From a virus: 21,393 nt of DNA. Both the position numbers and the translations under genes were made by a program. This document shows, piece after piece, positions 947 to 20,663 of this stretch. The notes under the pieces are model-generated. The model had not been told where the DNA came from. It was given only the letters and a program-made list of their open reading frames with translations, and searched no databases. The stretch spans positions 1 to 21,393 of IMG/VR virus record IMGVR_UViG_3300033153_006795. One strand, given 5' to 3'. Every line of letters starts with the position of its first letter. The first letter of the stretch is position 1.

Positions 947-2902
947 ATGGCTAATATTTCACCAGGTGTATATACCAAAATTATTGACCTCTCGACCTAT
1001 ACACAACAAGTTCCAAGTACAATTGGTCTTATATGTTCTCTTGCAGAAAAAGGTGAAGATAATAAATTAAAATTTATTGGTTCAAGATCTGATTATGTTG
1101 CAGAATTTGGAGAACCAAATATAGCTAAGTATGGAAAACATTATGGACAGGGACCTTATTTAGCTTATAATTACTTAGGTGAATCTGGATCATTATATCA
1201 CATAAGATGTTTACCAGATAATGCTGCTTTTGCAAATATGAGAATTGAAGCAAGATTTACAAATGCAGATAGTACTGCTAATGTTGTAGTGACTCATATT
1301 AGTGATATTAATACAAAAAGTGAATTACAAACAAATCTAGAACAGGCTGGTCATATTTATCCAATTGCTTTTCTATATCCAATAGGAAGAGGTGAGTATT
1401 ATAATGCAATTGGAGTTAGAATTACTGAATATTCTAATCCAATGGTTGAAGGAGTTTATGTATTAGATATTTATGAAAAACAGTCTGATGGAGATGATGT
1501 TGTAATAGAATCATTTAATGTTTCTTTCAATTCAAAAGCTGTTGATGATAATGGAGAATCTTTATTTATTGTTGATGTTTTAGAAACTTATTCTAGTGTT
1601 CTAAGAGCTGAAATGACTTTGGCTAGTGGAGCATATTCTAGTGGTCATGATTTAGTTTCTAAAATTTATGATAAAGATATTGGAGATGTATCTGTTACTT
1701 TGACTGATGGAGCTGCAGAAATATCTGATAATAAACAAGATTTTTCTGATTGGGAAAATGCTACTGAAACTGGAAATGCTAATTATGTAGTTATCGCTAT
1801 TGATGGAACTGGTAATAAGATTTGGGGTTGGTTAGGAGCTGCAACTGGAGGAAGTAGTACTTCTATTAATGTTTTTGATGATAGAAATCTGACAGGTTCT
1901 GCTAGAAATTGGAATGGAGCAACTACTTCTTTTAATGTTAATTCTACTATTACATATTTAATTAAAGAAACATATACTGAAATTTCTGATGCTTTTATTT
2001 CTAGCATTCCAGTTCCTCTTAGAAGAGGATCTGATGGTGCATTATTAGATGCTGCTGGAGATCTAGATACTACTGAAGCTACTGAAGTTTTAGCAAATGC
2101 ATATGCTGGAACAATTGATGATGATATTCTAGATACTGAAAATATTTACTTCACGGCTGTTTTTGATTGTGGATATCCAGATGATGTTAAAACTCAAATT
2201 AGTACTCTTGTTCAAACTAGAAGAGACTGTGTTGCTTTAATAGATAATGGTGATAATGCAACTTATAATGCATGTATTAATAGCAGAGTTAATACACACA
2301 CTTTTAATAATTACTTTTGTGCTCTTTATGAAGAGTATAATAAAGTATATGATGTTTTTACTGGAAAAGATGTTTGGTTTTCTCCTGTATATCATGTTGC
2401 ATATTTGTTACCGAGAAATGATTCTGTTGCTGAACCTTGGTTTGCAGTTGCTGGATTTAATAGAGCATCTATTGATACAATTAAAGATCTTCGTTTTAAT
2501 CCAAGATTGGGTCAGCGTGACCAAATGTATTTAAAACAGATTAATCCTCTGGTTAAATTTAATCCCGGGTATGTTTTATGGGGACAATTAACCACTCAAG
2601 CAAAAGCATCCGCTCTTCAAGACCTTAATATTGTAAGGTTAGTTCTTTATTGCAAAAGAGCACTTGAACAATATTGTAGGTATTTTATTTTCGAGCAAAA
2701 TGATGAAATTACTTGGAGTTTAATTGGTGGAGATATAGTTGAATTTCTAGAAGATATTAAAAGACGAAGAGGATTATATGATTATAGTGTTGAAGTCGGT
2801 GCTACTGCTTATGAAAAGAAAACAAAAACTTGTCACGTGAATGTAACATTAAATCCGGTCCGGGTGTTAGAAAAAATCGAACTAAACTTTTTCATTGTAT
2901 AA
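947..2902 (+). CDS. Contractile tail sheath protein
   Basis: A 651-residue protein with the classic sheath layout. The N-terminus is MANISPGVYTKIIDLS, which threads into the neighbouring subunit in the sheath lattice. A variable, beta-rich Gly/Ser/Asp middle follows (about residues 100-390). The conserved C-terminal domain has FNPGYVLWGQLTTQ near residue 540, then LVLYCKRALEQYCRYFIFE and a beta-strand-rich end (VNVTLNPVRVLEKIELNFFI). Polymerised sheath contracts around the tube to drive DNA injection. GGAGG lies nine bases before ATG 947, and the stop is followed by a strong terminator. In many myoviruses the tube gene lies next; here it is displaced to 18188. The 3' part (about 2560-2640 and 2820-2900) is less AT-rich than the middle, consistent with a conserved region that the endonuclease next door may recognise. 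Confidence 0.95.
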   Translation: MANISPGVYTKIIDLSTYTQQVPSTIGLICSLAEKGEDNKLKFIGSRSDYVAEFGEPNIAKYGKHYGQGPYLAYNYLGESGSLYHIRCLPDNAAFANMRIEARFTNADSTANVVVTHISDINTKSELQTNLEQAGHIYPIAFLYPIGRGEYYNAIGVRITEYSNPMVEGVYVLDIYEKQSDGDDVVIESFNVSFNSKAVDDNGESLFIVDVLETYSSVLRAEMTLASGAYSSGHDLVSKIYDKDIGDVSVTLTDGAAEISDNKQDFSDWENATETGNANYVVIAIDGTGNKIWGWLGAATGGSSTSINVFDDRNLTGSARNWNGATTSFNVNSTITYLIKETYTEISDAFISSIPVPLRRGSDGALLDAAGDLDTTEATEVLANAYAGTIDDDILDTENIYFTAVFDCGYPDDVKTQISTLVQTRRDCVALIDNGDNATYNACINSRVNTHTFNNYFCALYEEYNKVYDVFTGKDVWFSPVYHVAYLLPRNDSVAEPWFAVAGFNRASIDTIKDLRFNPRLGQRDQMYLKQINPLVKFNPGYVLWGQLTTQAKASALQDLNIVRLVLYCKRALEQYCRYFIFEQNDEITWSLIGGDIVEFLEDIKRRRGLYDYSVEVGATAYEKKTKTCHVNVTLNPVRVLEKIELNFFIV

Positions 2903-2916
2903 GTTAAACTAAATAT

Positions 2917-2970
2917 CAACTCCCTTCCTTTTATAGAACAAAAAAATAAAAAGGAAGGGAGTTGTTTTTT
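2917..2970 (+). terminator. Sheath terminator hairpin that carries the next gene's Shine-Dalgarno
   Basis: CAACTCCCTTCCTTTT (2917-2932) pairs perfectly with 2949-2964, followed by six T residues, so it is a strong intrinsic terminator for the sheath transcript. The right arm contains AAGGAAGGGAG (2951-2961), the only plausible ribosome binding site for the endonuclease starting at GTG 2971. In read-through transcripts this site would be base-paired and closed. Confidence 0.85.
2935..2950 (+). promoter_or_regulatory. Promoter-like box in the hairpin loop
   Basis: AGAACAAAAAAATAAA lies between the hairpin arms. Extended to 2929-2950 it matches 42-62 except for one extra A and one T-to-A change. 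A transcript starting here would lack the left arm and leave the Shine-Dalgarno of the gene at 2971 open. The core is AATAAA instead of TATAAA, which lowers confidence. Confidence 0.35.
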
Positions 2971-4815
2971 GTGTATATATGTAAAATTTGTAATAAAAAA
3001 TTTAAAACAAATCAAGGTCTAGTTTCTCATCTAACTAATCCTAAATCTTCCTGTAAAACTAATATTCAAGAATATTACAACAAATTTTTACGTAAACTAA
3101 ATGAAGGTATTTGTAAATTTTGTAATAATGAAACAAAATTTCTTGGTTTAAATAAAGGTTATTCTGGTAATATATGTTATGATTGTAATTTAAAAAATGT
3201 TGATAAAGAAAAAAATAAGAAAAGAAGTTATTCAATAAAATCTACTTTAAAAACAAAAAGTAAATTAAATAATATAAGAAAAAAATTAATTATACTTTTA
3301 AAAAAACAAACTATTAATAAAAAAAATAAACTTCAATGTCAAATTTGTGGTATACAATTTCTAAATTATTCTTCTATTTCAAAACATATTAAGATTCATA
3401 ATCTTTCAGTAGAAGAATATTACATAAAATTTTTTAAAACAACTAATGAAGATATATGTTTATGTTATAATATGGTAGATAATTGTAAAAAATTTACTAG
3501 TTTTGCATCTTTAGAAAAAGGATTTTCTGATTATTGTAGTTCTAAATGTGTATCATTGTCTCCTATTACTAAAGAAAAAAAGGAACTAAATTATTTAAAA
3601 AAACATAATGTTACTCATCCATCAAAAAATCCTTTAGTAAATAAAAAACAAAGAGATCATATTAAAAAAGCTTATAGAGAGAATTTAGAATCAATTCTTA
3701 TAAAAAGAAGAGAAACATTTTTGAAAAATTATATTCCAAAAATAGAAAAAGAATTGTCAAAAAGAAATATAAAATTAGAAAAATATAATGGTTGTAATAT
3801 ATTATCTATTTTTTCTTGTGAAAAATGTGGAGAAAAATTTGAAAGATTATTTGATTCAATAATTCATTATGATTGTAAATGTCCAAAATGTTTTCCGTAT
3901 TTCAAACATGTTTCTAATTTAGAACAAGAAATTGTAGATTTTATTAAACAACATTTAAATACTAATGAAGAAATTTTAACTAGTTATGTTGGTTTAATAA
4001 AGAATTTCGAAAGTAAAAGAAATTTAGAAGTTGATATTTTTATTCCATCTAGAAATATAGCTTTTGAATTTGATGGTTTATATTGGCATTCAGAATTAAA
4101 CTTAGATAAACCAGAAAAATATCATTTAAATAAAACTATTGGTTGTAAAGAAAAAGGAGTTCAGCTTATTCATATATTTGAAGATGAATGGATTATGAAA
4201 AATGATATTGTTAAAAATATGATTATACATAAATTAAACTTATCAAATAATAAAAAAATATATGCAAGAAATTGTATTATCAAAGAAATTTCTCCATCTG
4301 AAAAAAATGAATTTTTAGAAAAATATCATATTCAAGGAAAAGATTATTCAAAAATAAAACTTGGAGCATTTTTTAAAAATGAACTAGTAGCAGTCATGAC
4401 TTTTGGTTATGGAAATATTTCTAGAGGAGGAAATCCAAAAGACAAATTAACATGGGAGCTTAGTAGATTTTGTTCCTCTTCTAAATATAGAATAATTGGT
4501 ATTTCTAGTAAAATGTTAAAATATTTTCAAAATAATTGGGAATGGAATAGTATTTTTAGTTATGCTGATTTACGATGGTCTTATGGTAATATGTATTATA
4601 AATTAGGTTTTAATTTATCCCATCAAACTTCTCCAGATTATTGGTATTTTGGTAATAATATAATGGGTAGAATCCATAGATTTAATTTAAGAAAGAAACC
4701 AGACGAGCCAAAAGATATTCCAGAATGGAAATTAAGAAATGAACAAGGTTATTATCGAATATGGGATTGTGGTAAATTAAAATTTATTTTAAAAAACAAC
4801 AAAAAAATACTTTAA
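2971..4815 (+). CDS. Free-standing Vsr-like (EDxHD) homing endonuclease with zinc fingers
   Basis: A 614-residue multidomain protein. The start is GTG 2971, nine bases after AAGGAAGGGAG; an in-frame TTG at 2962 lies inside the terminator stem and is less likely. Zinc-binding modules come first: CKIC with a later H/C near residues 4-27, several Cys pairs, and a classical C-x2-C-x12-H-x3-H finger near 122-145. A Vsr-like nuclease core follows: E353/D355 in LEVDIFIP, E366/D368 in FEFDG, H373 in YWHSE, and FEDEW near 404. These residues fit the EDxHD family typified by I-Bth0305I. The C-terminal third (KLGAFF, ADLRWSYGNMYYKLGF) looks like a GNAT-type acyltransferase fold and ends in a conserved DEPKDIPEW tail. 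It is a homologue of the gene at 18927. It should cut endonuclease-free alleles near its insertion site and spread by repair. Confidence 0.85.
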   Translation: MYICKICNKKFKTNQGLVSHLTNPKSSCKTNIQEYYNKFLRKLNEGICKFCNNETKFLGLNKGYSGNICYDCNLKNVDKEKNKKRSYSIKSTLKTKSKLNNIRKKLIILLKKQTINKKNKLQCQICGIQFLNYSSISKHIKIHNLSVEEYYIKFFKTTNEDICLCYNMVDNCKKFTSFASLEKGFSDYCSSKCVSLSPITKEKKELNYLKKHNVTHPSKNPLVNKKQRDHIKKAYRENLESILIKRRETFLKNYIPKIEKELSKRNIKLEKYNGCNILSIFSCEKCGEKFERLFDSIIHYDCKCPKCFPYFKHVSNLEQEIVDFIKQHLNTNEEILTSYVGLIKNFESKRNLEVDIFIPSRNIAFEFDGLYWHSELNLDKPEKYHLNKTIGCKEKGVQLIHIFEDEWIMKNDIVKNMIIHKLNLSNNKKIYARNCIIKEISPSEKNEFLEKYHIQGKDYSKIKLGAFFKNELVAVMTFGYGNISRGGNPKDKLTWELSRFCSSSKYRIIGISSKMLKYFQNNWEWNSIFSYADLRWSYGNMYYKLGFNLSHQTSPDYWYFGNNIMGRIHRFNLRKKPDEPKDIPEWKLRNEQGYYRIWDCGKLKFILKNNKKIL

Positions 4816-4860: not shown

Positions 4861-5361
4861 TCATTTTCCTACAGACCTTAATAGCATATTAAACAAATCT
4901 GAACCACTATATTCAAATACTTTCTTCTTTCTTCCTGAATCAGTTTCTTCTAATTCTGAATGTTGATATATTTCTTTTACAAATCTTAATAACTCTCTAT
5001 TACTTTGAATATGTTTCTCAATTAACTCATTGTTTTCTTTCTGTAGTTTATAAGATTTTATATCTAGTATTTGAACTATTTGAATAAAATCTCTTTCATA
5101 AACATTTACTGGTAAAAGAAAGGAATAAGTGGCAAGATTATTAAGAGTAAATCCATTAGCTTCAAGAAGTCCTCGAAAAACACCACCTTTTTCATCTGGA
5201 ACATAAACAAAGAAATCCATATCTGATTTACTAGGATTATAATATCCAAACCTAAAACTCCCACCTTCAAACATGTCAGAATCTTCAAATCTTGATAACA
5301 ATGAAACTAACCATGTTCTGACTGCTGGATAAAGTTCCTTTACTAATAGTACTTCTCTCAT
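4861..5361 (-). CDS. Small nucleotidyltransferase-fold protein
   Basis: A 166-residue protein. GAAAGGAG lies seven bases before ATG. The segment GGSFRFGYYNPSKSDMDFFV holds the minimal nucleotidyltransferase signature: G34-S35 followed after 11 residues by D47-x-D49, the metal-binding pair of the Pol-beta-like fold. The rest is helical and charged (about 105-145), ending SDLFNMLLRS. Proteins of this kind transfer a nucleotide to RNA, protein or an antibiotic; the substrate here cannot be told. It is the third nucleotidyltransferase-like gene in the cluster, with those at 11499 and 13845. It has its own promoter-like box at 5396-5423 and a terminator at 4802-4856, so it may be monocistronic. 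The assignment rests on one motif. Confidence 0.55.
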   Translation of the reverse strand: MREVLLVKELYPAVRTWLVSLLSRFEDSDMFEGGSFRFGYYNPSKSDMDFFVYVPDEKGGVFRGLLEANGFTLNNLATYSFLLPVNVYERDFIQIVQILDIKSYKLQKENNELIEKHIQSNRELLRFVKEIYQHSELEETDSGRKKKVFEYSGSDLFNMLLRSVGK

Positions 5362-7210: not shown

Positions 7211-7570
7211 TTATTCATCTTTTTCTACTTTGATTGTTATATTCTTTATTCCTTTTAGATCATTATCAATTAAATGTCTTAAAATTAAATCTCTCATATA
7301 TTGTGGAACATTTTTATAATTATTATATAATAAACAAGAGTCTATTATTACAAAAAGATTTCCAGACTCTTGTCTAATATTACCTGGATTGTAAAAAGAT
7401 GGAAATGAACTACTATGACAATATTCCTTTAAATTATCGATATAAATATCCATATAATTACTAAACCATTTTTCAAATTCTTCTAAAGTAGTAATATTTT
7501 CATCCGTTTTTATACACATTAAAAAGCTAGCACTACTAGAATTTGTAATAAAATCTTTTTTAATTTTCAT
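7211..7570 (-). CDS. NSSS-motif protein 3 (MKIKKDFITNSSS N-terminus)
   Basis: A 119-residue protein. AAGGAG precedes ATG 7570, 14 bases after the neighbouring stop. Residues 1-18 (MKIKKDFITNSSSASFLM) are almost identical to those of the gene at 7585 and similar to the gene at 8086. The rest differs entirely: an acidic, aromatic region (TTLEEFEKWFSNYMDIYI), a Ser-rich turn, and a strand-like C-terminus (NITIKVEKDE). There is no signal peptide or membrane segment. A conserved N-terminal motif in front of unrelated bodies suggests the motif is a recognition or processing tag and not part of the fold. I recall similar N-termini in other phage and bacterial proteins but know no function. Confidence 0.65.
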   Translation of the reverse strand: MKIKKDFITNSSSASFLMCIKTDENITTLEEFEKWFSNYMDIYIDNLKEYCHSSSFPSFYNPGNIRQESGNLFVIIDSCLLYNNYKNVPQYMRDLILRHLIDNDLKGIKNITIKVEKDE

Positions 7571-7584
7571 ATTTAATAAACTCC

Positions 7585-8067
7585 TTAATGGTGACTTACA
7601 TGAATAAATGGTAACTCATAGAAAATTCCATCATGTTCCATTTGAGACCAAAATTCTCCATTATTATCTGAATAATGAAAAATATAAAAAACTTTATCAA
7701 TATTTTCTTTTACAAATTGTTTAGCTAATTTTAATGATATTTTTCTATTCTCCTCTCGAATACACTTCCATAATTTATACCTTTTTCTATAATCATCATT
7801 CTTTATTATATCATCATAAGATAAAGATAAATAACCATCAAATGTACCACTTCTAATTACACTATGAATTCTTTTAATAGTATTTGAATAATTTAATATA
7901 TCAGTTTTTAAAGGAGTTTGATTCTTTGAATCTTGTAATACAGCCATTGCTTTTTCTATATTAGGTATAAATTTATAAACATCTTCAAAACATTTTATTT
8001 CTTTATCCCAAGCTACTATAAAACTTGAAGAACTAGAATTTGTAATAAAATCCTTTTTAATTTTCAT
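7585..8067 (-). CDS. NSSS-motif protein 2 (MKIKKDFITNSSS N-terminus)
   Basis: A 160-residue protein with AAAGGAG nine bases before ATG. Residues 1-18 read MKIKKDFITNSSSSSFIV, the most canonical of the three copies. The body is helical and mixed-charge (about 20-135) and ends in VFYIFHYSDNNGEFWSQMEH and a His-rich tail (HVSHH). No enzyme motif is recognisable. It sits between the other two family members, 14 and 18 bases from each, so the three are certainly one transcription unit, read after the radical SAM gene upstream. Confidence 0.65.
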   Translation of the reverse strand: MKIKKDFITNSSSSSFIVAWDKEIKCFEDVYKFIPNIEKAMAVLQDSKNQTPLKTDILNYSNTIKRIHSVIRSGTFDGYLSLSYDDIIKNDDYRKRYKLWKCIREENRKISLKLAKQFVKENIDKVFYIFHYSDNNGEFWSQMEHDGIFYELPFIHVSHH

Positions 8068-8085: not shown

Positions 8086-8487
8086 TTAACACAATCTCGT
8101 AGAAAAATATAAATTCATTTCTCCATTATATCCAAATTTTTTTCTTAGTTCACTAATTATATCTGTTAATGCATTTAAATTAATTTGTTGTTTCGACCAA
8201 TCATAATTGTCAGAAGAATATGTTGCTAAGTGGTAACCAATAATAATTGTATTATCATTTGGGGTTCCATCTTCTCCTGATCTTAATATATGAAAATCAT
8301 TAGCTTCTTCAATTATATTTTCTATTTCATCTATATTTTCTATTTTAATATTTTCATCATTGATTATACATTCAATAATTTCTTGTTCTGACATTTTATA
8401 ATTTTCTTTTTCTGTATTAATATGAAATCCAATCATTACAAAATTACAAGTAGAACTATTTGTTACAAAATTAGTTTTAATTTTCAT
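8086..8487 (-). CDS. NSSS-motif protein 1 (MKIKTNFVTNSST N-terminus)
   Basis: A 133-residue protein with TTGGAG before ATG 8487. The N-terminus MKIKTNFVTNSSTCNFVM is the most divergent version of the motif, keeping K-I-K, F, T-N-S-S and the final aromatic-hydrophobic pair. The body is very acidic (EQEIIECIINDENIKIENID), with DWSKQQINLNALTDIISELR and a beta-like C-terminus (GEMNLYFSTRLC). No known catalytic motif. It is the first of the three paralogues to be transcribed and lies 26 bases after the 53-residue gene. Confidence 0.65.
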   Translation of the reverse strand: MKIKTNFVTNSSTCNFVMIGFHINTEKENYKMSEQEIIECIINDENIKIENIDEIENIIEEANDFHILRSGEDGTPNDNTIIIGYHLATYSSDNYDWSKQQINLNALTDIISELRKKFGYNGEMNLYFSTRLC

Positions 8488-8933: not shown

Positions 8934-9977
8934 TTATAATCCATAAGGACATTCATTTGAATTTGATTTTAATAAATTTCTGAATTCTAAAAATATATCT
9001 CCATTGTTCCATACTTTCTCAATTGATTTATTTTCTAAAGAAATTCCATATTTATCTGAATCTCCAAATGAACATGGTAATAACTTCATATCTGGAGAAA
9101 TATAAGCCGACATTCTAGATCCTTCACATGTATCAATAAACATCTTTTCATATTCAGTAAAATGTGCAAATGATTTAATTTTATTTACCATACAACTATC
9201 TAAACCAACTTGAAATGCACAATATGGTTTTTTTATCATTTTCGCAAATCTTTTTAATTGTTCTCTTGAAGGAATCCATTGTTGTAAATTCTTTCCTCTT
9301 CCTTGAGGTTTAAATAAAAGAAATATAACTGCATTTAATTTTTTAACATCAATTTTCTGATTCCATATGTCTATACCAAATAAAATATTCATACATCTAG
9401 TAAAAGATTCAGAAGAAAATATAACATGAATATTTGTTTTAATTCCAGCATTTATAAATTTGTTTAAAGCTTGATATGTCCAAAGTTGATCATAATCAGA
9501 GATTGCAACTGCACCACAACCTTTAGAAATTTCAATTTGTTCATCTGTTAAATTTCTTCCAGATGTAGTATAATTTGGAACAACATTATTTTTATTACAA
9601 TATTCAATTATTTCTTTAAAATTTTCATGTAAATTTGGATCTCCTCTTCCTCCAAGAGCAACTTGATTTACATGATGTTTTGTTTCATCAATAATTTTTT
9701 TAAAATCATCTAGTTTCATATTTGGTTGTTGATTATCTCCTTGATAACAAAAGTGACATTTATTTGAACAATGACCCATAATTCCAACATCTATCATAGT
9801 TGGCAGATCAGTAACAAAAGGATCATTATTTCCATTGATTCCTCTTAATACTTCAAACCCAGTTTTTGTATTAAATAATAATTCATATTTATCATTTTTA
9901 AATTGTTTATCAAAATTTCCAATTATTATGCTTTTTGTTTCATCATCAATTAGGATTTCTTTTTTCAAAGTTTTCAT
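8934..9977 (-). CDS. Radical SAM enzyme with SPASM/twitch-like C-terminus
   Basis: A protein of about 347 residues. The radical SAM motif C70-S-N-K-C74-H-F-C77 binds the 4Fe-4S cluster that cleaves S-adenosylmethionine. VALGGRGDPNLH (about 110) is the Gly-rich segment of the partial TIM barrel. The C-terminal region has CEGSRMSAYISPDMKLLPCSFG and ends NECPYGL, so it resembles a SPASM/twitch auxiliary-cluster domain with fewer Cys than usual. Such enzymes modify peptides or proteins, or act as anaerobic maturases. The start is uncertain: GGAGG (9978-9982) directly abuts ATG 9977, while an in-frame TTG at 9968 has a normal nine-base spacing. Its original upstream region was probably disturbed by the HNH gene inserted at 10015. 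It is transcribed towards the three NSSS-motif genes. Confidence 0.85.
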   Translation of the reverse strand: MKTLKKEILIDDETKSIIIGNFDKQFKNDKYELLFNTKTGFEVLRGINGNNDPFVTDLPTMIDVGIMGHCSNKCHFCYQGDNQQPNMKLDDFKKIIDETKHHVNQVALGGRGDPNLHENFKEIIEYCNKNNVVPNYTTSGRNLTDEQIEISKGCGAVAISDYDQLWTYQALNKFINAGIKTNIHVIFSSESFTRCMNILFGIDIWNQKIDVKKLNAVIFLLFKPQGRGKNLQQWIPSREQLKRFAKMIKKPYCAFQVGLDSCMVNKIKSFAHFTEYEKMFIDTCEGSRMSAYISPDMKLLPCSFGDSDKYGISLENKSIEKVWNNGDIFLEFRNLLKSNSNECPYGL

Positions 9978-9982
9978 CCTCC

Positions 9983-9998
9983 AGAACAAAATTATAAA
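9983..9998 (+). promoter_or_regulatory. AGAACAAAATTATAAA box before the HNH gene
   Basis: The same motif as at 48 and 16789, with one extra T, 16 bases before the HNH gene at 10015. It is rightward, inside an otherwise leftward cluster, so it would give the inserted endonuclease its own transcription. It overlaps the 5' end of the divergent radical SAM gene's translation signals. Confidence 0.45.
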
Positions 9999-10014
9999 AA
10001 GGTTTAATAAGAAA

Positions 10015-10977
10015 ATGAAATTATGTGACTATGGTTGCGGAAGAGAAGCAAAATATTACTTTAAAATAGTTAAAAAATGGTGTTGTTCTAAATATGTAGC
10101 ACAATGTCCAATATATAGAAATAAAAATAGTAATTATTCTAAAGAACTTCATAAAGATCCACAATATAAAGAAAAACACTCTTTTGGTTTAAAGTTAGCG
10201 TGGTCTAACTTAAATAATGGCTTTTTAAATAGAAATGAAAAATTGAGTAAATCTATTCAAGAAGCATGGAAAAGAAAAACTAGTAAATATCATACAAATG
10301 AATATAAAAGAAAGAGAAGTATTATTATGAAAAATCAATGGAACAATCCAAATGGAAAAATTAATAGTAAAGATAATAAGAAAAAACAAAGTATAAATAT
10401 TAAAAATAGATGGAAAAATTCAAATTATAAACAAATGATGAAAAAGAAAATAACTAAATCATGGAAACATGATAATACTAGAAGAATTAATTATGACTTT
10501 TTAGTTAAATATCATCCATTTTTTTGTATAATAGAAAATCCTATTCCAGATAAAGAAAGTGGACTTATCAAAATACATTGTAAAAATAGTAAATGTAAAT
10601 ATTCTAAAGAAAATGGAAATCGATTTGTTCCAACTTTATTACAAATATTTGAAAGAATTAGACAATTAGAATCTAAATATGGAAATGGTGGTTCATATTT
10701 TTATTGTTGTGAAAAATGTAAAAAAGAATGTGCCTTATTTAATTTGAAATCGGACCCATATAAAAATAATGATAAATTATATATTCCAGAAGAATATCAA
10801 ACATTTAGAGAAATTGTTCTAAAACGGGATGATTACAAATGTATTTATTGTGGAGAAAAAGCAGAACATGTTCATCATACTCGTCCACAAAAATTAGAAC
10901 CATTTTTCTCATTAGATCCAGACTTTGGAATTTTTGTTTGTAAGGATATTTTACAAATCTCCTCCAAATTCTTTTAA
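10015..10977 (+). CDS. HNH homing endonuclease with truncated, fused 3' end
   Basis: A 320-residue protein starting at ATG 10015 (MKLCDYGCGREAKYYF, like the start of the gene at 17288), with AAAAAGG about 12 bases upstream. The N-terminus has a Cys-rich motif. The middle is Lys/Asn/Trp-rich with short repeats around MKNQWNNPN, IKNRWKNSN and ITKSWKHDN (about 105-165), typical of modular DNA-binding repeats. The HNH domain starts at CIYCGEKAEHVHH (C276 onwards). It is broken: after FVC (base 10941) the sequence stops matching the intact paralogue and reads through 12 codons of flanking DNA. The second Cys pair's final Cys, the last His and about 20 more residues are missing. It is probably inactive or damaged. 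It is the only rightward gene in the leftward cluster. Confidence 0.75.
   Translation: MKLCDYGCGREAKYYFKIVKKWCCSKYVAQCPIYRNKNSNYSKELHKDPQYKEKHSFGLKLAWSNLNNGFLNRNEKLSKSIQEAWKRKTSKYHTNEYKRKRSIIMKNQWNNPNGKINSKDNKKKQSINIKNRWKNSNYKQMMKKKITKSWKHDNTRRINYDFLVKYHPFFCIIENPIPDKESGLIKIHCKNSKCKYSKENGNRFVPTLLQIFERIRQLESKYGNGGSYFYCCEKCKKECALFNLKSDPYKNNDKLYIPEEYQTFREIVLKRDDYKCIYCGEKAEHVHHTRPQKLEPFFSLDPDFGIFVCKDILQISSKFF
10828..10941 (+). repeat. Near-identical HNH segment shared with 17924-18091
   Basis: These 114 bases match 17924-18091, minus its extra 54-base copy, with five mismatches. The 5' parts of the two genes are strongly diverged. The match ends sharply at 10941, marking the truncation point of this gene. 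Confidence 0.85.
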
Positions 10978-11498: not shown

Positions 11499-12551
11499 CT
11501 AAAAATTTCTTAAATAATTTTCATTAATTTCTTCACAAAGTTGGTCTAATTTTTTAATGTTTGGCGAATATTGTAATTTACTTTTATCATATAAATCATC
11601 AAATAAGTTATCATAATTACTAACTAAACTCATTAATTCATCAAAGGTTAATGAACCATTTTTTATTTGAGTTAAAAATTCTGCATCTGGTCTTGGAAAT
11701 GTAATTTTTCCAGTTGTTAATAATTCTTCTCCTTCTGTCATCAAACGGTAGAGGTGACTTGCGTGTTTACAATCATAACCAAATTTCTTTTCTAAAATAG
11801 CTCTTTCTGGATTTCTATTTTTTTTCCATCTATTATAAGCATTCCACTCTCGAATTGCATTTAAGTAACCTTTTTCTCTCTCCAAAGCATCTATCATATT
11901 ATCAGAAACTGGAAGAATTTGCTTAACTACTTTATAATCAATATTTACTAAGTTTTGAGTTAAAGATATATATGATGTTGTTTCTTCCATCTCTTCCAAC
12001 TGTTCTCTTAATTTATGATGTTTACCAATCTGTTCTAAATATAAAGATAATAAAATATTAAAAGCTCCAATTTGATCTTTTGGAACTAAACTTTGATTTT
12101 CTGGTAAACCAAACTCAGACCTTTCTGGTTTCTTTTTTGGTGGATTTAATAACCATGATCTATGTCTTTTTATTCTTTTAAATTGTGAATGAGCATATCC
12201 TGAAAATGTGAATTTACATTTTTTAGATATAAAATAATCTCTATTATCTAAAATTTGTTTCCATTCGTCAGTTATTAATAAATGATTTTCTATTGGTATA
12301 AAAAGATATTCTACTATATTTGGATTATTAGCAATTGCTAATTTAAAAAACTTCTTTATTTCATGAAATACTATATCATTTACTTTATCTTCAAATTGTT
12401 CAACTCGTTTAGAAAATCCATAAAAATATTCTTTACTTGGTATAAAAACTCCACGAGTGTCTATATCAGAATCTTTTGTTGCATTACCATATAAATTACT
12501 TCCTGTTATAAAAGTAGAAATCATTTTGAAATCTTCTGGAATATTAATCAT
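11499..12551 (-). CDS. RlaP-type nucleotidyltransferase (Pol-beta superfamily)
   Basis: A 350-residue protein, full length for the family, with AAAGGAAAT before ATG. The catalytic signature is G17-S18-N-L-Y-G followed by S28-D29-I-D31-TRGVFIP. Next come FEDKVNDIVFHEIKKFFKLA (about 53-72), NPNIVEYLF, a GYAHSQFKR segment, and the C-terminal KKFGYDCKHASHLYRLMTEG. This order matches the COG3541/PF10127 (RlaP) family, which comparative genomics has linked to RNA repair alongside RNA ligases. It would add nucleotides to RNA ends; the substrate is unproven. It lies 15 bases downstream of the AAA+ ATPase and in the same operon as the CCA-adding-type enzyme, which supports a joint role on tRNA or other broken RNA. 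No ligase is seen in this window. Confidence 0.8.
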   Translation of the reverse strand: MINIPEDFKMISTFITGSNLYGNATKDSDIDTRGVFIPSKEYFYGFSKRVEQFEDKVNDIVFHEIKKFFKLAIANNPNIVEYLFIPIENHLLITDEWKQILDNRDYFISKKCKFTFSGYAHSQFKRIKRHRSWLLNPPKKKPERSEFGLPENQSLVPKDQIGAFNILLSLYLEQIGKHHKLREQLEEMEETTSYISLTQNLVNIDYKVVKQILPVSDNMIDALEREKGYLNAIREWNAYNRWKKNRNPERAILEKKFGYDCKHASHLYRLMTEGEELLTTGKITFPRPDAEFLTQIKNGSLTFDELMSLVSNYDNLFDDLYDKSKLQYSPNIKKLDQLCEEINENYLRNF

Positions 12552-12566
12552 TTTTTCATTTCCTTT

Positions 12567-13556
12567 TTATAGTTTTCCAAATCCAGCTTCAGATGAATAG
12601 TATTCATCGCTAGATTTTTTCTTTTCTAATTGTTTTAATCTAAATGCTGCTTCTTCAAGAGACAAATCAAAACATTTTGTGGAGATAACCAAATCACTTA
12701 ATGAAGCATAAGTAAAGCCATTTGATATCTCCACATATTTTTCAACTTCGTCATCATTTACTTTTAATTTTTCTTGAAAGTATTTTCTTCGAATCTCTTT
12801 ATTTGGTTCTACAATTTTTATTATCCTATCAAATCTTCTTGGTCTTGAAACAATTCTCTTATCTAAACGTTCTGGATAATTTGTTGTAGCTATATTTAAA
12901 ACGTAATCAATAAGATTCTCACCATCTAATAATGATAAAATCTCTTGTTCTCCATACTCATCTATAATAGAATCTATGTCTTCAAATATACATAATATAT
13001 TTCTATTTGGTTCAACTATTCTAATTTGTTCAATTGCTTTAATAATTATATATGGTCCAGTAGATGTACAATTAATAACTATACCATCTTGTTCATTAAT
13101 AACCGAATTTATTATTTGTTTTACAATTGAACTTTTACCTGTTCCAGCTCTTCCATAAAATAAATATCCTCTGCGATGTGAAAACCCTCTACTTTTAAAT
13201 TCATTTCTTTTCTTCCAAAATTTAGAAATTTCTTTTGTAACTTCTATTGATATATCATCTAAAAGTAATAAATCATCTGTAATTATATCTTTTTTACATA
13301 AAGTAGATATTCCTTGATTATTTAAATAAGTTTCATAATACCCACTATGTAATTTTTGAATACTTCTACTAATTGGTCTAAATTCATTATTTGGTAAAAT
13401 AATCCATTGTGAAAATCCAAAATTTAAATTTTCTTCTCGATCCTCAGGTGTAGCTTCTTCGACTTTTCCAGCTTCTCTTGATCTTAATTTATGTTTTATT
13501 AATAATTTTTCTGACTTATTTTCTGAACTTCCAGAACCAAATTCTTCTATATTCAT
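12567..13556 (-). CDS. AAA+ ATPase (Bcs1/FtsH-like AAA module)
   Basis: A 329-residue protein with AGGAGAAG before ATG. An N-terminal non-ATPase region (about 1-115) has no recognisable domain. The AAA core follows: Walker A GRAGTGKS at 135-142, Walker B ILCIFEDID near 190, sensor 1 NIATTNYPERL near 220, and an arginine-finger region RIVSRPRRFDR near 235. The small helical lid domain ends in KKKSSDEYYSSEAGFGKL. Such ATPases assemble as rings and remodel or unfold a partner. There is no protease domain and no membrane segment. The start overlaps the end of the decayed gene by a TAATG junction, and the RlaP-type gene follows after 15 bases, suggesting that it works with the nucleotidyltransferases. 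Confidence 0.85.
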   Translation of the reverse strand: MNIEEFGSGSSENKSEKLLIKHKLRSREAGKVEEATPEDREENLNFGFSQWIILPNNEFRPISRSIQKLHSGYYETYLNNQGISTLCKKDIITDDLLLLDDISIEVTKEISKFWKKRNEFKSRGFSHRRGYLFYGRAGTGKSSIVKQIINSVINEQDGIVINCTSTGPYIIIKAIEQIRIVEPNRNILCIFEDIDSIIDEYGEQEILSLLDGENLIDYVLNIATTNYPERLDKRIVSRPRRFDRIIKIVEPNKEIRRKYFQEKLKVNDDEVEKYVEISNGFTYASLSDLVISTKCFDLSLEEAAFRLKQLEKKKSSDEYYSSEAGFGKL

Positions 13557-13848
13557 TATTTTACTTCTCCTATATCCTCTTTTTTATTTTTAATTTCTTG
13601 AGATATTTCCTTTTTTATATCTGATATACATTTGTGATTGATAGTTCCAGTTCTAAAAATCCTGTTCCCGTTAAATAATTCATAACTATTTTTAACTTTT
13701 TATTTTCAGTTTTCGATATATTTCCTAAGTATTCCTTTAATTGTTAACAACACCACTCTGGTCTTTTTAACCATTGATTTAATAATTTAAATCTAACTTT
13801 TTGTCATTCTTTATCTTTTACTAAATCAGACATTTTTTCCTTTGTCAT
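13556..13848 (-). pseudogene. Decayed gene of about 97 codons between the CCA-type and AAA+ genes
   Basis: The 290 bases between the two large genes still read as a gene. ATG 13848 overlaps the CCA-type gene's TGA (ATGA). The frame continues MTKEKMSDLVKDKE, a TGA, QKVRFKLLNQWLKRPEWCC, a TAA, then QLKEYLGNISKTENKKLKIV. A one-base frame change near 13640 restores TGTINHKCISDIKKEISQEI up to a TAA that overlaps the AAA+ start (TAATG). Perfect overlaps at both ends show that it was once a translated operon member; two stops and a shift show that it is now broken. Function unknown. Confidence 0.6.
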
Positions 13849-15251
13849 TTTTTCTTTCCTTCTATTTCTTTAACTAATTTTTCTAATGTTTCTTTTTCAT
13901 TCAAAGATAGATCATTTACAATCATCTGTAAAAGTTGTTTTTTAATTCTCCCGACTTCTGGACTAGGTTTTAAATTTCTTATTTCCATTATATCGTTTCC
14001 ATTTATTTTTAAATCTGAGAATTTATTTGGAGGTTTTTCGTTTAAAACATTCTTAAAAATAGTCATTATCAATTTCTTTTGAAAAAATGTATAATTATTT
14101 TTACTTATATTTGCAATTCTATCAGCTATCATAAGTCTTACTAAATCTTTATAATTTACATCTTTATCATTAATTTTTTTAAGAAATCTTCTTACAATTC
14201 TATTTCTTCTGTTATATCGTTTTTCAGATATAATTTTAGTTCTTCTAGATTTCTTTAAAGGTTTTGCTAAAGTTTGATATGGAATTCTCATATGAAAATA
14301 TATTAGATTTTTAATATAATCAATTTCATAGTTAGAAAATGTTAAATTTTTCAGTTCATCTTCTACTACTTTTGCACCAGTTTTTTCATGACCTAAAAAT
14401 TTTAATTGACCATCTTTATTTATATCTGCTGATATTGGTTTTCCTACATCATGTAAATACCCAGTTAGTTTTAATAGTGGATATTTTGTTGTAATATTAT
14501 CACCACAAATTAAACTATGATCAATTATACTTTCAATATGATATTTTCCATGTCCATTTTTAAAATTATAACAAGTTTCAAGAGATGGAAAAATATATTG
14601 AAGACAATTAATTTCATAAAGACAATTAAAAAATAAAGAAGCTTTTTGAATTTTCATAGATTTTAAAACTTCTAAACGAATGCGCTCTGGATTTACATAA
14701 TTTAATACATAATCAGAATAGTTTTTCATTTCATCTTTTGTATTTTTATCAAATTTTCCATCTATTAAAGCTAAAAATCTACATGCTCGAATAATTCGAT
14801 TTGGATCTTCATATATTCTTTTAAACGGATCTCCAGTAAATCGAATTATTTTATCTTTTAAATCTTTAACTCCATTAAATGGATCTACAATTTTCTCTGA
14901 AAATGGATCTAAAGCAATTGAATTTATAGTCAAATCTCTTCTAGATAAATCTTCTTCAATAGTATTTGCAAATTTAATTTCAGTATTTTTATCACTTAGA
15001 CCAAATGATTTATCTATTCTATATGTTGCTACTTCAATATTATCTACTATAACAACACCAAAGTTTTTTCCAACTAATTTTACATTTTGTTCTTGAAATA
15101 AATCAATAATTTCATCTGGTTTCGCTGATGTTACAATATCAATGTCGGAGGATTTATCAAAACCCATTAATTGATCTCGAACAAATCCTCCGACAATGAA
15201 TACTTCAAAACCAGACTTCGATAATTTTTCAATTATTTGTTTTGAAGTCAT
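13845..15251 (-). CDS. CCA-adding-type tRNA nucleotidyltransferase with HD domain
   Basis: A 468-residue class II nucleotidyltransferase. The head domain has GGFVRDQLMG (21-30) and D36-I-D38, the metal-binding pair. RRDLTINSIALDP near 105 and YEDPNRIIRACRF near 148 are the ribose- and nucleotide-binding motifs of the tRNA nucleotidyltransferase/poly(A) polymerase family. LHDVGKP (H267-D268) marks an HD phosphohydrolase domain, as in bacterial CCA enzymes able to remove 2',3'-cyclic phosphates. A Lys/Arg-rich stretch (KRYNRRNRIVRRFLKK, about 343) could bind RNA. It probably builds or repairs tRNA 3' CCA ends; poly(A) polymerase activity cannot be excluded. It stops with TGA overlapping the next start. 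In a phage it could counter tRNA-cleaving host defences or finish phage tRNAs. Confidence 0.9.
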   Translation of the reverse strand: MTSKQIIEKLSKSGFEVFIVGGFVRDQLMGFDKSSDIDIVTSAKPDEIIDLFQEQNVKLVGKNFGVVIVDNIEVATYRIDKSFGLSDKNTEIKFANTIEEDLSRRDLTINSIALDPFSEKIVDPFNGVKDLKDKIIRFTGDPFKRIYEDPNRIIRACRFLALIDGKFDKNTKDEMKNYSDYVLNYVNPERIRLEVLKSMKIQKASLFFNCLYEINCLQYIFPSLETCYNFKNGHGKYHIESIIDHSLICGDNITTKYPLLKLTGYLHDVGKPISADINKDGQLKFLGHEKTGAKVVEDELKNLTFSNYEIDYIKNLIYFHMRIPYQTLAKPLKKSRRTKIISEKRYNRRNRIVRRFLKKINDKDVNYKDLVRLMIADRIANISKNNYTFFQKKLIMTIFKNVLNEKPPNKFSDLKINGNDIMEIRNLKPSPEVGRIKKQLLQMIVNDLSLNEKETLEKLVKEIEGKKK

Positions 15252-16821: not shown

Positions 16822-17298
16822 ATGAATCTAAAAAACTACTTAGAAACAATACAAAATGATGAATCCATATTTCCTATGGATTCGTATCATAAAGATAAAA
16901 AAATATTTCGAGTAGTTTATCCCGAATCTGAGAATTTATCTGAAAAAGATAGAATTATGATAGATTTCGATAAAGTTATTCACTCTTATGATGAAGGTTT
17001 TAAAGATGGAAGTATTTACGGAAAAGTAATAAGTGGAGCAAAAGAAGCTATTGATAAATTAAAAGATATGGGTTTCGAAATAGTTATCTTTACTACTAGA
17101 GCTTCAGATTTTGAAAATGATGGTAAAAATCAAAAAGAAGATGTTAAAAAATGGTTACAAAAAAATAATATTTATTTTGATAATATAACTGCTGAAAAGT
17201 TAGGAGCAGTTGCTTATATTGATGATAAAGCTGTGAGATTTGAAAATTGGAAACAAGTAATGAAAATAATTGGAGATTTGATGAATAGTGGAATGTAG
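16822..17298 (+). CDS. HAD-like phosphatase
   Basis: A 158-residue protein with AGGAAGT before ATG. Motif I is IMIDFDKVIHSY (about 46-57), with the D-x-D in which the first Asp is normally the phosphorylated nucleophile. GAKEAIDKLKDMGFEIVIFTTR (about 74-95) contains motif II (Thr near 93). Motif III/IV is AVAYIDDKAVRFENW near 133-147. The DFDxVIHSY form is common among small phage and bacterial HAD proteins, usually with Gly where this one has Lys. Likely a phosphohydrolase on a small metabolite or a nucleic-acid end; the substrate is unknown. It ends with TAG overlapping the HNH start by 11 bases. Confidence 0.8.
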   Translation: MNLKNYLETIQNDESIFPMDSYHKDKKIFRVVYPESENLSEKDRIMIDFDKVIHSYDEGFKDGSIYGKVISGAKEAIDKLKDMGFEIVIFTTRASDFENDGKNQKEDVKKWLQKNNIYFDNITAEKLGAVAYIDDKAVRFENWKQVMKIIGDLMNSGM

Positions 17299-18169
17299 TT
17301 ATGGTTGTGGAAGAGAAGCGAAATATTTTTTAAAAAATGGAAACCCTTGTTGTTCAGAAAGGTTTCAACTTTGTCCAGAACCTATAAGAAAAAGTGCAAA
17401 CACTAGAATCGGACAAAAGAGAAGTAAAGAAACTAAAAAATTATTATCTGAGATACATAAGGGACATAAATCAAATAAAAAAGGGAAAACATATATTGAA
17501 TTATATGGAAAAGAAAAAGCGGATAAAATTAAAAAGAAAATGAGTATCAATAGTAAGGTTTCTATAGAACAAATACAAAAGAGATATCCCTTCTTTTCTA
17601 GAATTGAAGAGATGAGATATAATCCAAATAAGACCAAAGAAATTCAAGTACATTGTAAAAACCATAATTGTCCTAATTCAAAAGAACAAGGTGGTTGGTT
17701 TACTCCAACATATAATCAATTATCTGAGAGAATTAGACAATTAGAAAATGATTGGGGAAATTGTTCTTCTTATTTCTATTGTTCAAAAGAATGTAAAAAT
17801 ATTTGTCCTCTTTATGGTAAAACTGTAAATCAACTTCTTAAAGAATATGAAATAAATGATGATAATTTAGAAATATATACTTCAGAAGAATATCAAATAT
17901 TTAGACAAGAAGTGTTAAAACGAGATGATTACAAATGTATTTATTGTGGAGAAAAAGCAGAACATGTTCATCATATTCGTCCGCAAAAACTAGAACCATT
18001 TTTCTCAAAAGCAGAACATGTTCATCATATTCGTCCGCAAAAACTAGAACCATTTTTCTCATTAGATCCAGATTTTGGAATTTCTGTTTGTATAAATTGT
18101 CATTTTTTATATGGACATAAAACAAATACAAATTGCTCTACAAATAACTTAGCAAAAAAAGTTTGTTAA
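17288..18169 (+). CDS. HNH homing endonuclease with internal 18-residue duplication
   Basis: A 293-residue protein. The start is GTG 17288, with GGAG 12 bases upstream inside the HAD gene; the N-terminus ECSYGCGREAKYF matches that of the gene at 10015. A Cys-rich region follows (PCCSERFQLCPEP, CKNHNCPN, YCSKECKNICP). The HNH domain begins at C217 (CIYCGEKAEHVHHIRPQ) and ends with VCINCHFLYGHK, so both Cys pairs and the last His are kept. The segment KAEHVHHIRPQKLEPFFS occurs twice in tandem, duplicating the catalytic His pair, which may distort the active site. It lies between the HAD gene and the tail tube, 18 bases before the tube start, with no intron signs, so it is free-standing. Confidence 0.8.
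   Translation: MECSYGCGREAKYFLKNGNPCCSERFQLCPEPIRKSANTRIGQKRSKETKKLLSEIHKGHKSNKKGKTYIELYGKEKADKIKKKMSINSKVSIEQIQKRYPFFSRIEEMRYNPNKTKEIQVHCKNHNCPNSKEQGGWFTPTYNQLSERIRQLENDWGNCSSYFYCSKECKNICPLYGKTVNQLLKEYEINDDNLEIYTSEEYQIFRQEVLKRDDYKCIYCGEKAEHVHHIRPQKLEPFFSKAEHVHHIRPQKLEPFFSLDPDFGISVCINCHFLYGHKTNTNCSTNNLAKKVC
17953..18060 (+). repeat. Perfect 54-base tandem duplication in the HNH domain
   Basis: 17953-18006 and 18007-18060 are identical at every base. The unit is 18 codons, so the frame is kept. The paralogue at 10828-10941 has one copy, showing that the single-copy form is ancestral and the duplication recent. Confidence 0.97.
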
Positions 18170-18187: not shown

Positions 18188-18910
18188 ATGAAGTATTCAT
18201 TTGCAGAACTAAATCAAAACATATTAACTAGAAACTTCGGTGGGACACAGGTGGGTATCTCAGATCCCTATTTAACGGGATATCATTTTATATGGTTTTC
18301 AAAAATTCCATCAAAATTAATAGATTATTTATCTGCTTCTGGTTCTGGTATTAGTGATGACAGTGAAGTAAAAAATATACTTGCTGCATCTTGTCTTTCT
18401 GTGACTCCTCCAGGAGGAACTCTCAATACAGTTGAATTTACTGGACTTGGTGGAGTTAAATGGGGCGTGCCAGGAAATGTTGATTATGGAAATACAGTTT
18501 CTATTAAATTTCTAGAATTCGATCAGACTCCAATTTATAATATTATGCATAATTGGATTAAAATGATCAGAGATTATAGAACTGGTTTGACTGAAATGGA
18601 AGATGGTGACCAGGGTGAAGGATATACAAAGAAAACTTATGCAGGATTGTTATTTTATTGGACAACTTCTCCTGATGGAAAAACAATACAAGAGTATTCT
18701 TGCTTTGATGGTGTGTATCCAACTAAAGATCCGCGAGATTTATTTACTAGTGATGTAGAAACTGTTGGAAGACTTGATTTAGAAATTGAATTTCATCTTG
18801 ATTATGCTTGGCATGAACCATGGGTTAAAACTAAGTGTCAAACGTTAGCTCAATCTTTTATGGCTGCAAAAGAAATAGTGAAAAAATATGGCGAATCTTA
18901 TTCACAATAA
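18188..18910 (+). CDS. Tail tube protein
   Basis: A 240-residue protein with AGGAGGT eight bases before ATG. Features of phage tail tube proteins: a central beta sandwich with VEFTGLGGVKWGVPGNVDYG (about 79-98), SIKFLEFDQTPIYNIMHNWI, YAGLLFYWTTSPDG, YSCFDGVYPTKDPRD, and the C-terminal VGRLDLEIEFHLDYAWHEPW. The D-G-V-Y-P-T-K-D-P and F-H-L-D-Y-x-W-H-E segments are typical of large myoviruses. Hexameric rings stack inside the sheath to form the DNA channel. It is separated from the sheath by more than 15 kb, which is unusual. Its stop is followed directly by an endonuclease gene. Confidence 0.88.
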   Translation: MKYSFAELNQNILTRNFGGTQVGISDPYLTGYHFIWFSKIPSKLIDYLSASGSGISDDSEVKNILAASCLSVTPPGGTLNTVEFTGLGGVKWGVPGNVDYGNTVSIKFLEFDQTPIYNIMHNWIKMIRDYRTGLTEMEDGDQGEGYTKKTYAGLLFYWTTSPDGKTIQEYSCFDGVYPTKDPRDLFTSDVETVGRLDLEIEFHLDYAWHEPWVKTKCQTLAQSFMAAKEIVKKYGESYSQ

Positions 18911-18926
18911 AAGGATAAAATACATA

Positions 18927-20663
18927 ATGAAATGTCAATTTAAAGATTGTGAAAAAACATTAAAAAATTTGAATGGTTTAGCAAAACATATTAAAATTCA
19001 TAATATATCTCTTAAAGAATATTATGATATGTTTATGAAAAAAGAAGAAGATTGTATATGTAAAGAATGTGGTTCTCCAACAACATTTATAGATTTAAGA
19101 CAAGGTTACAGAAAATATTGTCATAATCCATGTCCAACAAATAAAGAACTTGGTAAAGTATGGAAAGATTCTATAAAAAAGATACATGGAGTAGATAACG
19201 TTTCTAAACTAAAATATATAAAAGAAAAGAAAAAAGAGACATTTCAAAAGAATTATGGTTCTGACAACATTTTTGCCACAGAAGAGTTTAAAAGAAAAAA
19301 CAAAAAAGAACTAAAAGAAAAATATGGTGTAGAATATGCATCTCAAGTAGATTTTGTAAAAAAGAAAAGACAGCAAACTTTTAATGAAAAATTTAATGGT
19401 CATCCAATGAAATGTGAAGAAATTAAAGAAAAAGTAAAAAATGTATTTATAGAAAAATATGGAGTTGATAATCCACTGAAATGTGAAGAAGTAAAAAATA
19501 AAATGAAGAATACATGTTTAGATAAATATGGTGTAGATCATGTATCAAAATGTAAAGAAATTAAAAATAAAGCAAAAGAAACAAATATTAATAAATTCAT
19601 TAAAAATAAATTATATACAATTCTAAATTATTTAGAACTTGAATTAATTGGTACTTATAAATCTGCTCATAACCGATATACTTGGAAATGTTTAGAATGT
19701 AATCGTGAATTTCAACAGACATGGAACGCTATTCAACAAGGTTGTCTTTGTCCAAAATGTTCTTATAAAGTAAAAAATAAATCCAAACTAGAAAACGAAT
19801 TATATCGATTTATAAATGATTTATTATTAAATGAAGAAATAGTAAAAAACTCTAGATCTATAATTCCTCCTCAAGAATTAGATATTTTTATACCAAACAG
19901 AAAAATTGCTATTGAATTTAATGGACTTTATTGGCACTCAGAAGAAATATTAGAAGATAAAAATTATCATTTAAATAAAACTAAAAACTGTAATGAAAAA
20001 GGAATTCAACTTATTCATATATTTGAAGATGAATGGTTATTTAAAAAAGATATTGTAAAAAATCGTTTAAAACAAATTCTAGATGTTAATAATGTTGAAA
20101 GAATTCATGGAAGAGATTGTATAATTAAAGAAATAGACAGCAAAATAAAAAGTAATTTTTTAGAAAAATATCATATACAAGGAAGTGATAATTCTGTTAT
20201 AAAATTAGGAGCATTTTATAATAATCAATTAGTTTCAGTTATGACTTTTTCTCACGGGAATATTGCTAAAGGAAGTAAATCAGAAGAAGATGTTTGGGAA
20301 TTAAATAGATTTTGTTCAAACTATAAGTATCATATTCCAGGAATTGCTGGAAAATTATTAAGTTATTTCAAAAAGAATTATCAATGGAAAGAAATTTTTT
20401 CTTATGCAGATCGAAGATGGTCTAATGGTAATTTATACTATAAATTAGGTTTTAAACTAGAACATATTACTAAACCTAACTATTGGTACATACAAGGATA
20501 TGATAGAATACATAGATTTAATTTAAGAAAAAAACCAGATGAACCAAAAGATATTCCAGAGTGGAGTTTAAGAAGTAAAGAAGGATATACCAGAATTTGG
20601 GATTGTGGTAATTTAAAATTTATATACAAAAAACAGGAGGTAAATAATAATGTTATTATATGA
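18927..20663 (+). CDS. Free-standing Vsr-like (EDxHD) homing endonuclease with DNA-binding repeats
   Basis: A 578-residue homologue of the gene at 2971. ATG 18927 follows AAAAGGA by 12 bases; an in-frame ATG at 18888 lies within the tube gene and has no ribosome binding site. It opens with a C-x4-C-x12-H-x3-H zinc finger (residues 3-25). At about 87-223 are five or so repeats of about 26 residues of the form KYGVDNPLKCEEVKNKMKNT, probably DNA-reading modules. The nuclease core has E317/D319 (ELDIFIP), E330 (IEFNG, with Asn where the relative has Asp), H337 (YWHSE) and FEDEW. The GNAT-like domain and DEPKDIPEW tail follow. The 3' end overlaps the next gene by 14 bases, so its last codons (VNNNVII) are borrowed from that gene's leader. 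Confidence 0.85.
   Translation: MKCQFKDCEKTLKNLNGLAKHIKIHNISLKEYYDMFMKKEEDCICKECGSPTTFIDLRQGYRKYCHNPCPTNKELGKVWKDSIKKIHGVDNVSKLKYIKEKKKETFQKNYGSDNIFATEEFKRKNKKELKEKYGVEYASQVDFVKKKRQQTFNEKFNGHPMKCEEIKEKVKNVFIEKYGVDNPLKCEEVKNKMKNTCLDKYGVDHVSKCKEIKNKAKETNINKFIKNKLYTILNYLELELIGTYKSAHNRYTWKCLECNREFQQTWNAIQQGCLCPKCSYKVKNKSKLENELYRFINDLLLNEEIVKNSRSIIPPQELDIFIPNRKIAIEFNGLYWHSEEILEDKNYHLNKTKNCNEKGIQLIHIFEDEWLFKKDIVKNRLKQILDVNNVERIHGRDCIIKEIDSKIKSNFLEKYHIQGSDNSVIKLGAFYNNQLVSVMTFSHGNIAKGSKSEEDVWELNRFCSNYKYHIPGIAGKLLSYFKKNYQWKEIFSYADRRWSNGNLYYKLGFKLEHITKPNYWYIQGYDRIHRFNLRKKPDEPKDIPEWSLRSKEGYTRIWDCGNLKFIYKKQEVNNNVII

Follow-up and report, generated by a model that had tools for sequence, protein, structure and literature searches.

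A CCA-type nucleotidyltransferase and RlaP form an optional gene cassette, a candidate for tRNA-end repair, in a clade of large myophages

The genes for a class II CCA-type tRNA nucleotidyltransferase and for an RlaP nucleotidyltransferase form an optional two-gene cassette in a clade of large myophages, where it occupies the slot between the tail tube and tail sheath genes. The cassette was analysed in the window, a stretch of 21,393 nucleotides (about 25% G+C) that is the complete IMG/VR record IMGVR_UViG_3300033153_006795 and is, to judge from its contractile-tail genes, a fragment of a large uncultured phage (a myophage). A preliminary description of this DNA had proposed that three genes at 11499–15251, encoding RlaP, an AAA+ ATPase and a CCA-type enzyme with an HD domain, could together constitute a tRNA-repair module. 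All three proved to be intact open reading frames (ORFs) on the minus strand. The RlaP and CCA part of the proposal is supported by homology, active sites, both-or-neither presence in relatives, adjacency and earlier literature (PMC7824862), whereas the AAA+ part is not, this gene being found at the site only in the window. The best explanation of the whole, to which we assign a probability of roughly 0.55, is that the CCA-RlaP cassette restores damaged tRNA ends and that the AAA+ gene is an insertion. The enzyme types and a general role in jumbo-phage RNA repair were already proposed in 2021; what is new here is that CCA-RlaP forms a fixed cassette with a both-or-neither distribution, and that the AAA+ gene is recognised as an outsider.

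The enzymes of the cassette

The first gene of the pair (13845–15251, minus strand) encodes a protein of 468 residues that matches PF01743 (E 4e-31), PolyA_pol_RNAbd, HD (PF01966) and tRNA_NucTran2_2 (PF13735), as well as phrog_2244 (E 5.8e-68); its top matches in the PDB are CCA-adding enzymes (9.8e-33). The class II motifs GGxVRD, DxD, RRDxTIN, EDxxR and ER are all kept, the HD-type residues H245, H267-D268, H288 and H320 are complete, and the loop preceding RRDxTIN is about as long as that in a solved CCA-adding enzyme, as judged by alignment to 6ibp. All catalytic motifs and HD residues are thus shared with bacterial Cca, the class II CCA-adding enzyme with an HD domain, but the phage proteins, which are about 50% identical within the clade, fall under the curated cut-offs for the cellular enzymes.

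The second gene (11499–12551, minus strand) encodes an RlaP protein of 350 residues. The profile match to PF10127 (E 4.9e-21, 76 bits) lies well above the cut-off of 23, phrog_388 is matched with E 1.6e-64, and the catalytic residues G17-S18...S28-D29-x-D31 are intact and are invariant across 55 relatives. The GS...SDxD signature and the phage setting are those of the T4 NrdC.11-type proteins of this family; the difference from other RlaP proteins is that this clade pairs RlaP with a CCA enzyme and not with an RNA ligase. The family occurs in hundreds of phages, and no report of biochemical activity for any RlaP was found in the literature.

The AlphaFold2 model of RlaP (predicted local distance difference test, pLDDT, 92.8) comprises a pol-beta nucleotidyltransferase domain and a helical part. 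No sequence relative was found in the PDB, and the nearest solved fold is HalB of the Hailong system (Z 10.1 over 170 residues, root-mean-square deviation 4.0, 16% identity), the next family giving Z 6.9. HalB makes an oligodeoxyadenylate, which in Hailong is reported to hold immune activation in check (PMC12265719), and this would offer a precedent for an RlaP that makes a nucleotide signal or oligonucleotide blocking host defence. Such a role appears improbable: RlaP and HalB show no sequence match even with the 55-sequence profile, the aligner carries the caution that Z values under about 13 may reflect a common arrangement in helical proteins, and the linkage of RlaP to CCA and RNA ligase genes points instead to RNA ends.

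Distribution of the CCA-RlaP pair

Eighty RlaP loci were taken from IMG/VR, and the closest of them belong to the same phage clade, with the gene order tube, HAD (haloacid dehalogenase) / CCA, RlaP, radical SAM / sheath. In about 14 distinct contigs the CCA gene precedes RlaP on the same strand, within the same sheath–tube slot, and in six of these (L020, L022, L023, L024, L027 and L279) the two frames overlap or are no more than 5 bp apart. In the window the slot is bounded by the tail sheath gene (947–2902, plus strand; phrog_19666/phrog_23) and, at its far edge, by a gene for a tail tube-like protein (18188–18910, plus strand; phrog_45, 3.2e-07, and two virion-protein families), and the interval between them is filled by genes mostly on the minus strand.

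RlaP had been the criterion for this first sample, so 41 further relatives were picked by their tail sheath instead, independently of RlaP. Two of these 41 contigs have RlaP; exactly those two also have CCA, at a distance of about 1.5 kb, a coincidence with a chance probability of 1/820. The remaining contigs, including two of 224 kb and 277 kb, carry neither gene. This both-or-neither presence identifies the pair as an optional cassette of the clade. Among distant phages, the CCA genes lie immediately upstream of RlaP in KLEP7 and about 2 kb upstream in UPEC06, and the two genes are 67 bp apart in L078 and 749 bp apart in L091.

Two further observations concern relatives of the cassette. A contig filed as a Lokiarchaeota metagenome-assembled genome (DAOUVJ010000001.1; L208, L222) carries the sheath, radical SAM, CCA and RlaP genes of this clade, as well as the TNSSS-motif genes discussed below; because the clade's sheath gene is on it, it is probably a phage contig that was binned with an archaeon. 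In two close relatives a ligase gene lies between RlaP and radical SAM (L012:11551-13350 and L013:12057-13850). It was considered as an RNA ligase and rejected, its product being an NAD-dependent DNA ligase with OB, HhH and BRCT domains.

The AAA+ gene at the CCA-RlaP junction

The AAA+ gene (12567–13556, minus strand; PF00004, 9.9e-11) encodes a YjoB/BCS1/CDC48-like ATPase of 329 residues, whose best PDB match is YjoB of B. subtilis (1e-18), with BCS1 at 7e-10. The signatures of the classical clade, namely Walker A, Walker B, the conserved Asn and the paired Arg, are found as GRAGTGKSS, FEDID, ATTNYPERL and RPRRFDR, and are conserved in A2. The Walker motifs and second region of homology are thus shared with YjoB, BCS1 and CDC48, while the N-terminal 100 residues differ from these in matching other phage proteins only; no BCS1-specific Pfam match, such as would indicate the BCS1 N-terminal domain, was found at E up to 0.1. 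An ATPase of the YjoB/BCS1 type would be expected to act as a chaperone or remodeller, and BCS1-type ATPases have been noted earlier in jumbo phages, where a role in virion assembly was proposed (PMC7824862).

A gap of 15 bp separates the AAA+ and RlaP genes, which presumably share a transcript, so that the two might form a functional unit in which, for example, the AAA+ protein remodels a ribonucleoprotein or stalled ribosome and opens the tRNA end to RlaP and the CCA enzyme; it could be added that some AAA+ relatives adjoin RNA-related genes. We regard this as very unlikely. The AAA+ gene is absent from the CCA-RlaP junction in every clade relative seen, and occurs in no other clade contig with the pair. 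In a sample of 80 loci chosen by AAA+ relatives, most of them stand-alone proteins of about 334 residues encoded on viral contigs, only two have RlaP within 10 kb, and two, bearing the same copy, have CCA. Whole-record counts on 50 of these records gave RlaP in nine, in none of which it is within 5 kb of the AAA+ gene, while within 10 kb there are two cases against 1.55 expected. The preliminary description had considered the AAA+ protein as a possible partner of RlaP, and had itself named co-occurrence no better than chance as evidence to the contrary; this is what the survey returned, and AAA+ with RlaP as a system is rejected. The gene appears rather to be a lineage-specific insertion in the operon, not a required partner. 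It is seen in one assembly: a further contig of this virus, L092 (45.7 kb), starts near the radical SAM gene and stops short of the AAA+ gene.

A member of the T4-type RNA ligase family stands directly downstream of the AAA+ relative in L362, L363, L365 and L370 (for example L362:9974-12061), and a DUF2828 (DUF2828/DUF7788) protein is encoded upstream in L351-L353, L357, L360 and L364 (for example L357:8277-11005). The ligase lies within 3 kb in 4 of 11 (P 0.03), mostly in one lineage, and the signal is no longer significant at 5 kb. An AAA+ gene beside an RNA ligase or DUF2828, in two or three lineages, is therefore offered as a lead.

A proposed role in tRNA-end repair

During infection the CCA enzyme would rebuild the 3' CCA ends of tRNA, its HD domain may free blocked ends of 2'- or cyclic phosphates, and RlaP would add lost nucleotides to RNA 3' ends; tRNAs that host defences had damaged, or that had decayed once the host was shut off, would become usable again. 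The HD domain of E. coli Cca is known to remove 2'- or cyclic phosphates. Any joining of cut strands would fall to a host ligase, or to a phage ligase encoded outside the fragment. The cassette is a good candidate for such repair on the grounds of homology, intact catalytic motifs, fixed order, adjacency, both-or-neither presence and prior literature, and it is from these that we infer the activity itself. In an earlier study, RlaP and CCA enzymes are likewise proposed as end-restoring nucleotidyltransferases, serving jumbo-phage RNA repair against host attack on tRNA, RlaP being held to restore bases lost before ligation (PMC7824862, Viruses 2021;13:63). The passages of it that were covered describe no pairing of RlaP with CCA; the present arrangement differs from the set given there in being a tight two-gene cassette, gained or lost as a unit, with no visible ligase, kinase or tRNAs. 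Outside the clade, 15 of 26 records have an RNA ligase within 12.5 kb of RlaP where 4.5 would be expected, as would suit an RNA-repair gene, although the calculation treats related phages as independent.

Several observations weigh against a repair role for the pair. The CCA-type protein scores under the NCBIfam equivalog cut-off PRK13299 (195.9 against 290 bits), for which reason it is called CCA-type here and is not assigned as an orthologue of the cellular enzyme, and its specificity may be for CCA or for another kind of end addition. The 60-kb clade contig L018 has RlaP without CCA, and outside the clade CCA lies within 5 kb of RlaP in 4 of 25 against 1.5 expected (P 0.06), a weak enrichment. 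Distances for CCA and RlaP are uncorrelated between relatives: in a mirror-tree test RlaP distances track those of sheath and radical SAM and CCA distances track nothing, a result which neither supports nor excludes co-inheritance of the two. Profile scans found no RNA ligase or kinase among the window proteins scanned, so that the preliminary description was right to report none visible in the window, which is the whole record and a fragment. No tRNA gene was found there either, and neither a PF09414 ligase nor a tRNA gene occurs in a 108-kb relative that carries the pair. The RNA ligase and the healing kinase/phosphatase of ligase-based repair operons (Pnkp-Rnl-Hen1, Rtc) were thus not found at the locus, where the HAD protein at 16822 resembles PNKP phosphatase only weakly (E 0.06). 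A full repair route is therefore not visible in these sequences.

The same contigs bear on the possibility that the CCA enzyme matures the phage's own tRNAs and that RlaP is an unrelated housekeeping protein. CCA enzymes are widespread in large phages, and the 277-kb clade contig has four tRNA genes; that contig, however, lacks both CCA and RlaP, while the 108-kb contig that has the pair lacks tRNA genes, and for these reasons maturation is the less likely role. That the two genes travel together also speaks against it, and overall we consider this explanation rather unlikely.

RlaP is partnered by a CCA enzyme here, and the pair-bearing contigs of the clade, fragments of up to 108 kb, showed no RNA ligase; restoration of the acceptor end by the pair is therefore at least as likely as repair of the anticodon loop. 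A narrower version of this idea is that the pair counters toxins of the acceptor end, whether by MenT-like extension or CCA removal, and not anticodon nucleases. A CCA enzyme acts at the acceptor end only, and extension of tRNA acceptor ends is reported for MenT3 (PMC11541572). We judge this version distinctly unlikely.

A neighbouring radical SAM enzyme and TNSSS proteins

Downstream of CCA-RlaP in the window lies a gene for a radical SAM protein with a SPASM-like C-terminus (8934–9989, minus strand; PF04055, 7.3e-10; TTG start, with an ATG at residue 5). It is followed on the same strand by three short genes (8086–8487, 7585–8067 and 7211–7570), recognised by motif and position, whose products start MKIKTNFVTNSSTCNF, MKIKKDFITNSSSSSF and MKIKKDFITNSSSASF, respectively, and have little in common past the first residues MKIK[KT][DN]F[VI]TNSS. 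The shared N-terminus overall is MKIKxDF[VI]TNSSSxxF. Neither Pfam nor NCBIfam gave a convincing match to these TNSSS proteins, and TNSSSSSF and similar strings gave no literature match in a search that lacked figures and most subscription papers.

The CxxxCxxC motif of the enzyme (C74/C78/C81) is conserved, and its model (pLDDT 93.2) finds as best PDB folds the maturases of ribosomally synthesised and post-translationally modified peptides (RiPPs), with SuiB first (E 2.4e-13), then SkfB and PqqE. Fold, CxxxCxxC and an extra conserved Cys are shared with these radical SAM/SPASM maturases; the difference is that the partners of the present enzyme bear an unnamed N-terminal motif. No NCBIfam equivalog scored above its cut-off.

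Of the clade contigs that cover this region, most have the radical SAM gene and many show one to five TNSSS proteins, with or without CCA-RlaP. When the DNA of GTDB genomes was scanned for the motif, it was found in 27 stretches, from Bacteroidales, Clostridia, Sulfurimonas, Spirochaetia and others, and in 23 of the 27 it directly adjoins a radical SAM homologue (examples being L230:3735-5191, from Tissierella praeacuta, and L207:2440-3894); the control, in which motif ORFs were compared with ORFs of the same length, was blunted by spurious ORFs that overlap radical SAM genes. In viral contigs outside the clade a radical SAM gene lies within 600 bp of the motif in 11 of 41 loci, and often there is none. 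A second radical SAM type (LTRKCNLxCxYCAIV) was observed near TNSSS proteins in viral contigs L239, L245, L251, L252, L267, L277, L286, L289, L291, L307 and L309.

On balance we incline to the view that the radical SAM/SPASM-like enzyme modifies the MKIKxDF[VI]TNSSSxxF proteins in an undescribed protein-modification system, with one enzyme and one substrate per operon in bacteria of several phyla, and an expansion to one to five motif proteins in large phages. Linkage, motif and modelled fold are the observations from which we infer modification of the motif, and the stretch MKIKADFVTNSSSTSF of the motif protein is a candidate site of change by the enzyme.

Other genes of the window

The nucleotidyltransferase-like gene that the preliminary description had placed at 4861 is borne out, the match of its product to PF01909 (5.2e-05) being just above cut-off, at 24 against 21 bits. 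This small NTP_transf_2-type protein (4861–5361, minus strand) is not part of the pair, and its other occurrences were confined to a contig of the same virus (L172/L177). Homing endonuclease-like ORFs of two kinds occur at 9835-10977, 17288-18169, 2962-4815 and 18888-20663. The first two of these have in common an HNH-like stretch that is nearly identical (DDYKCIYCGEKAEHVHH), and there is a short internal duplication inside ORF 17288-18169.

Conclusions

For RlaP, the cassette yields both a concrete hypothesis of function, tRNA 3'-end restoration, and a matched enzyme pair, kept apart from an AAA+ gene that would have misled an activity test of the pair. The radical SAM enzyme and its TNSSS proteins are the more surprising part of the locus, and this side result may matter more than CCA-RlaP: if confirmed, the combination would represent a new kind of protein modification common to phages and bacteria.

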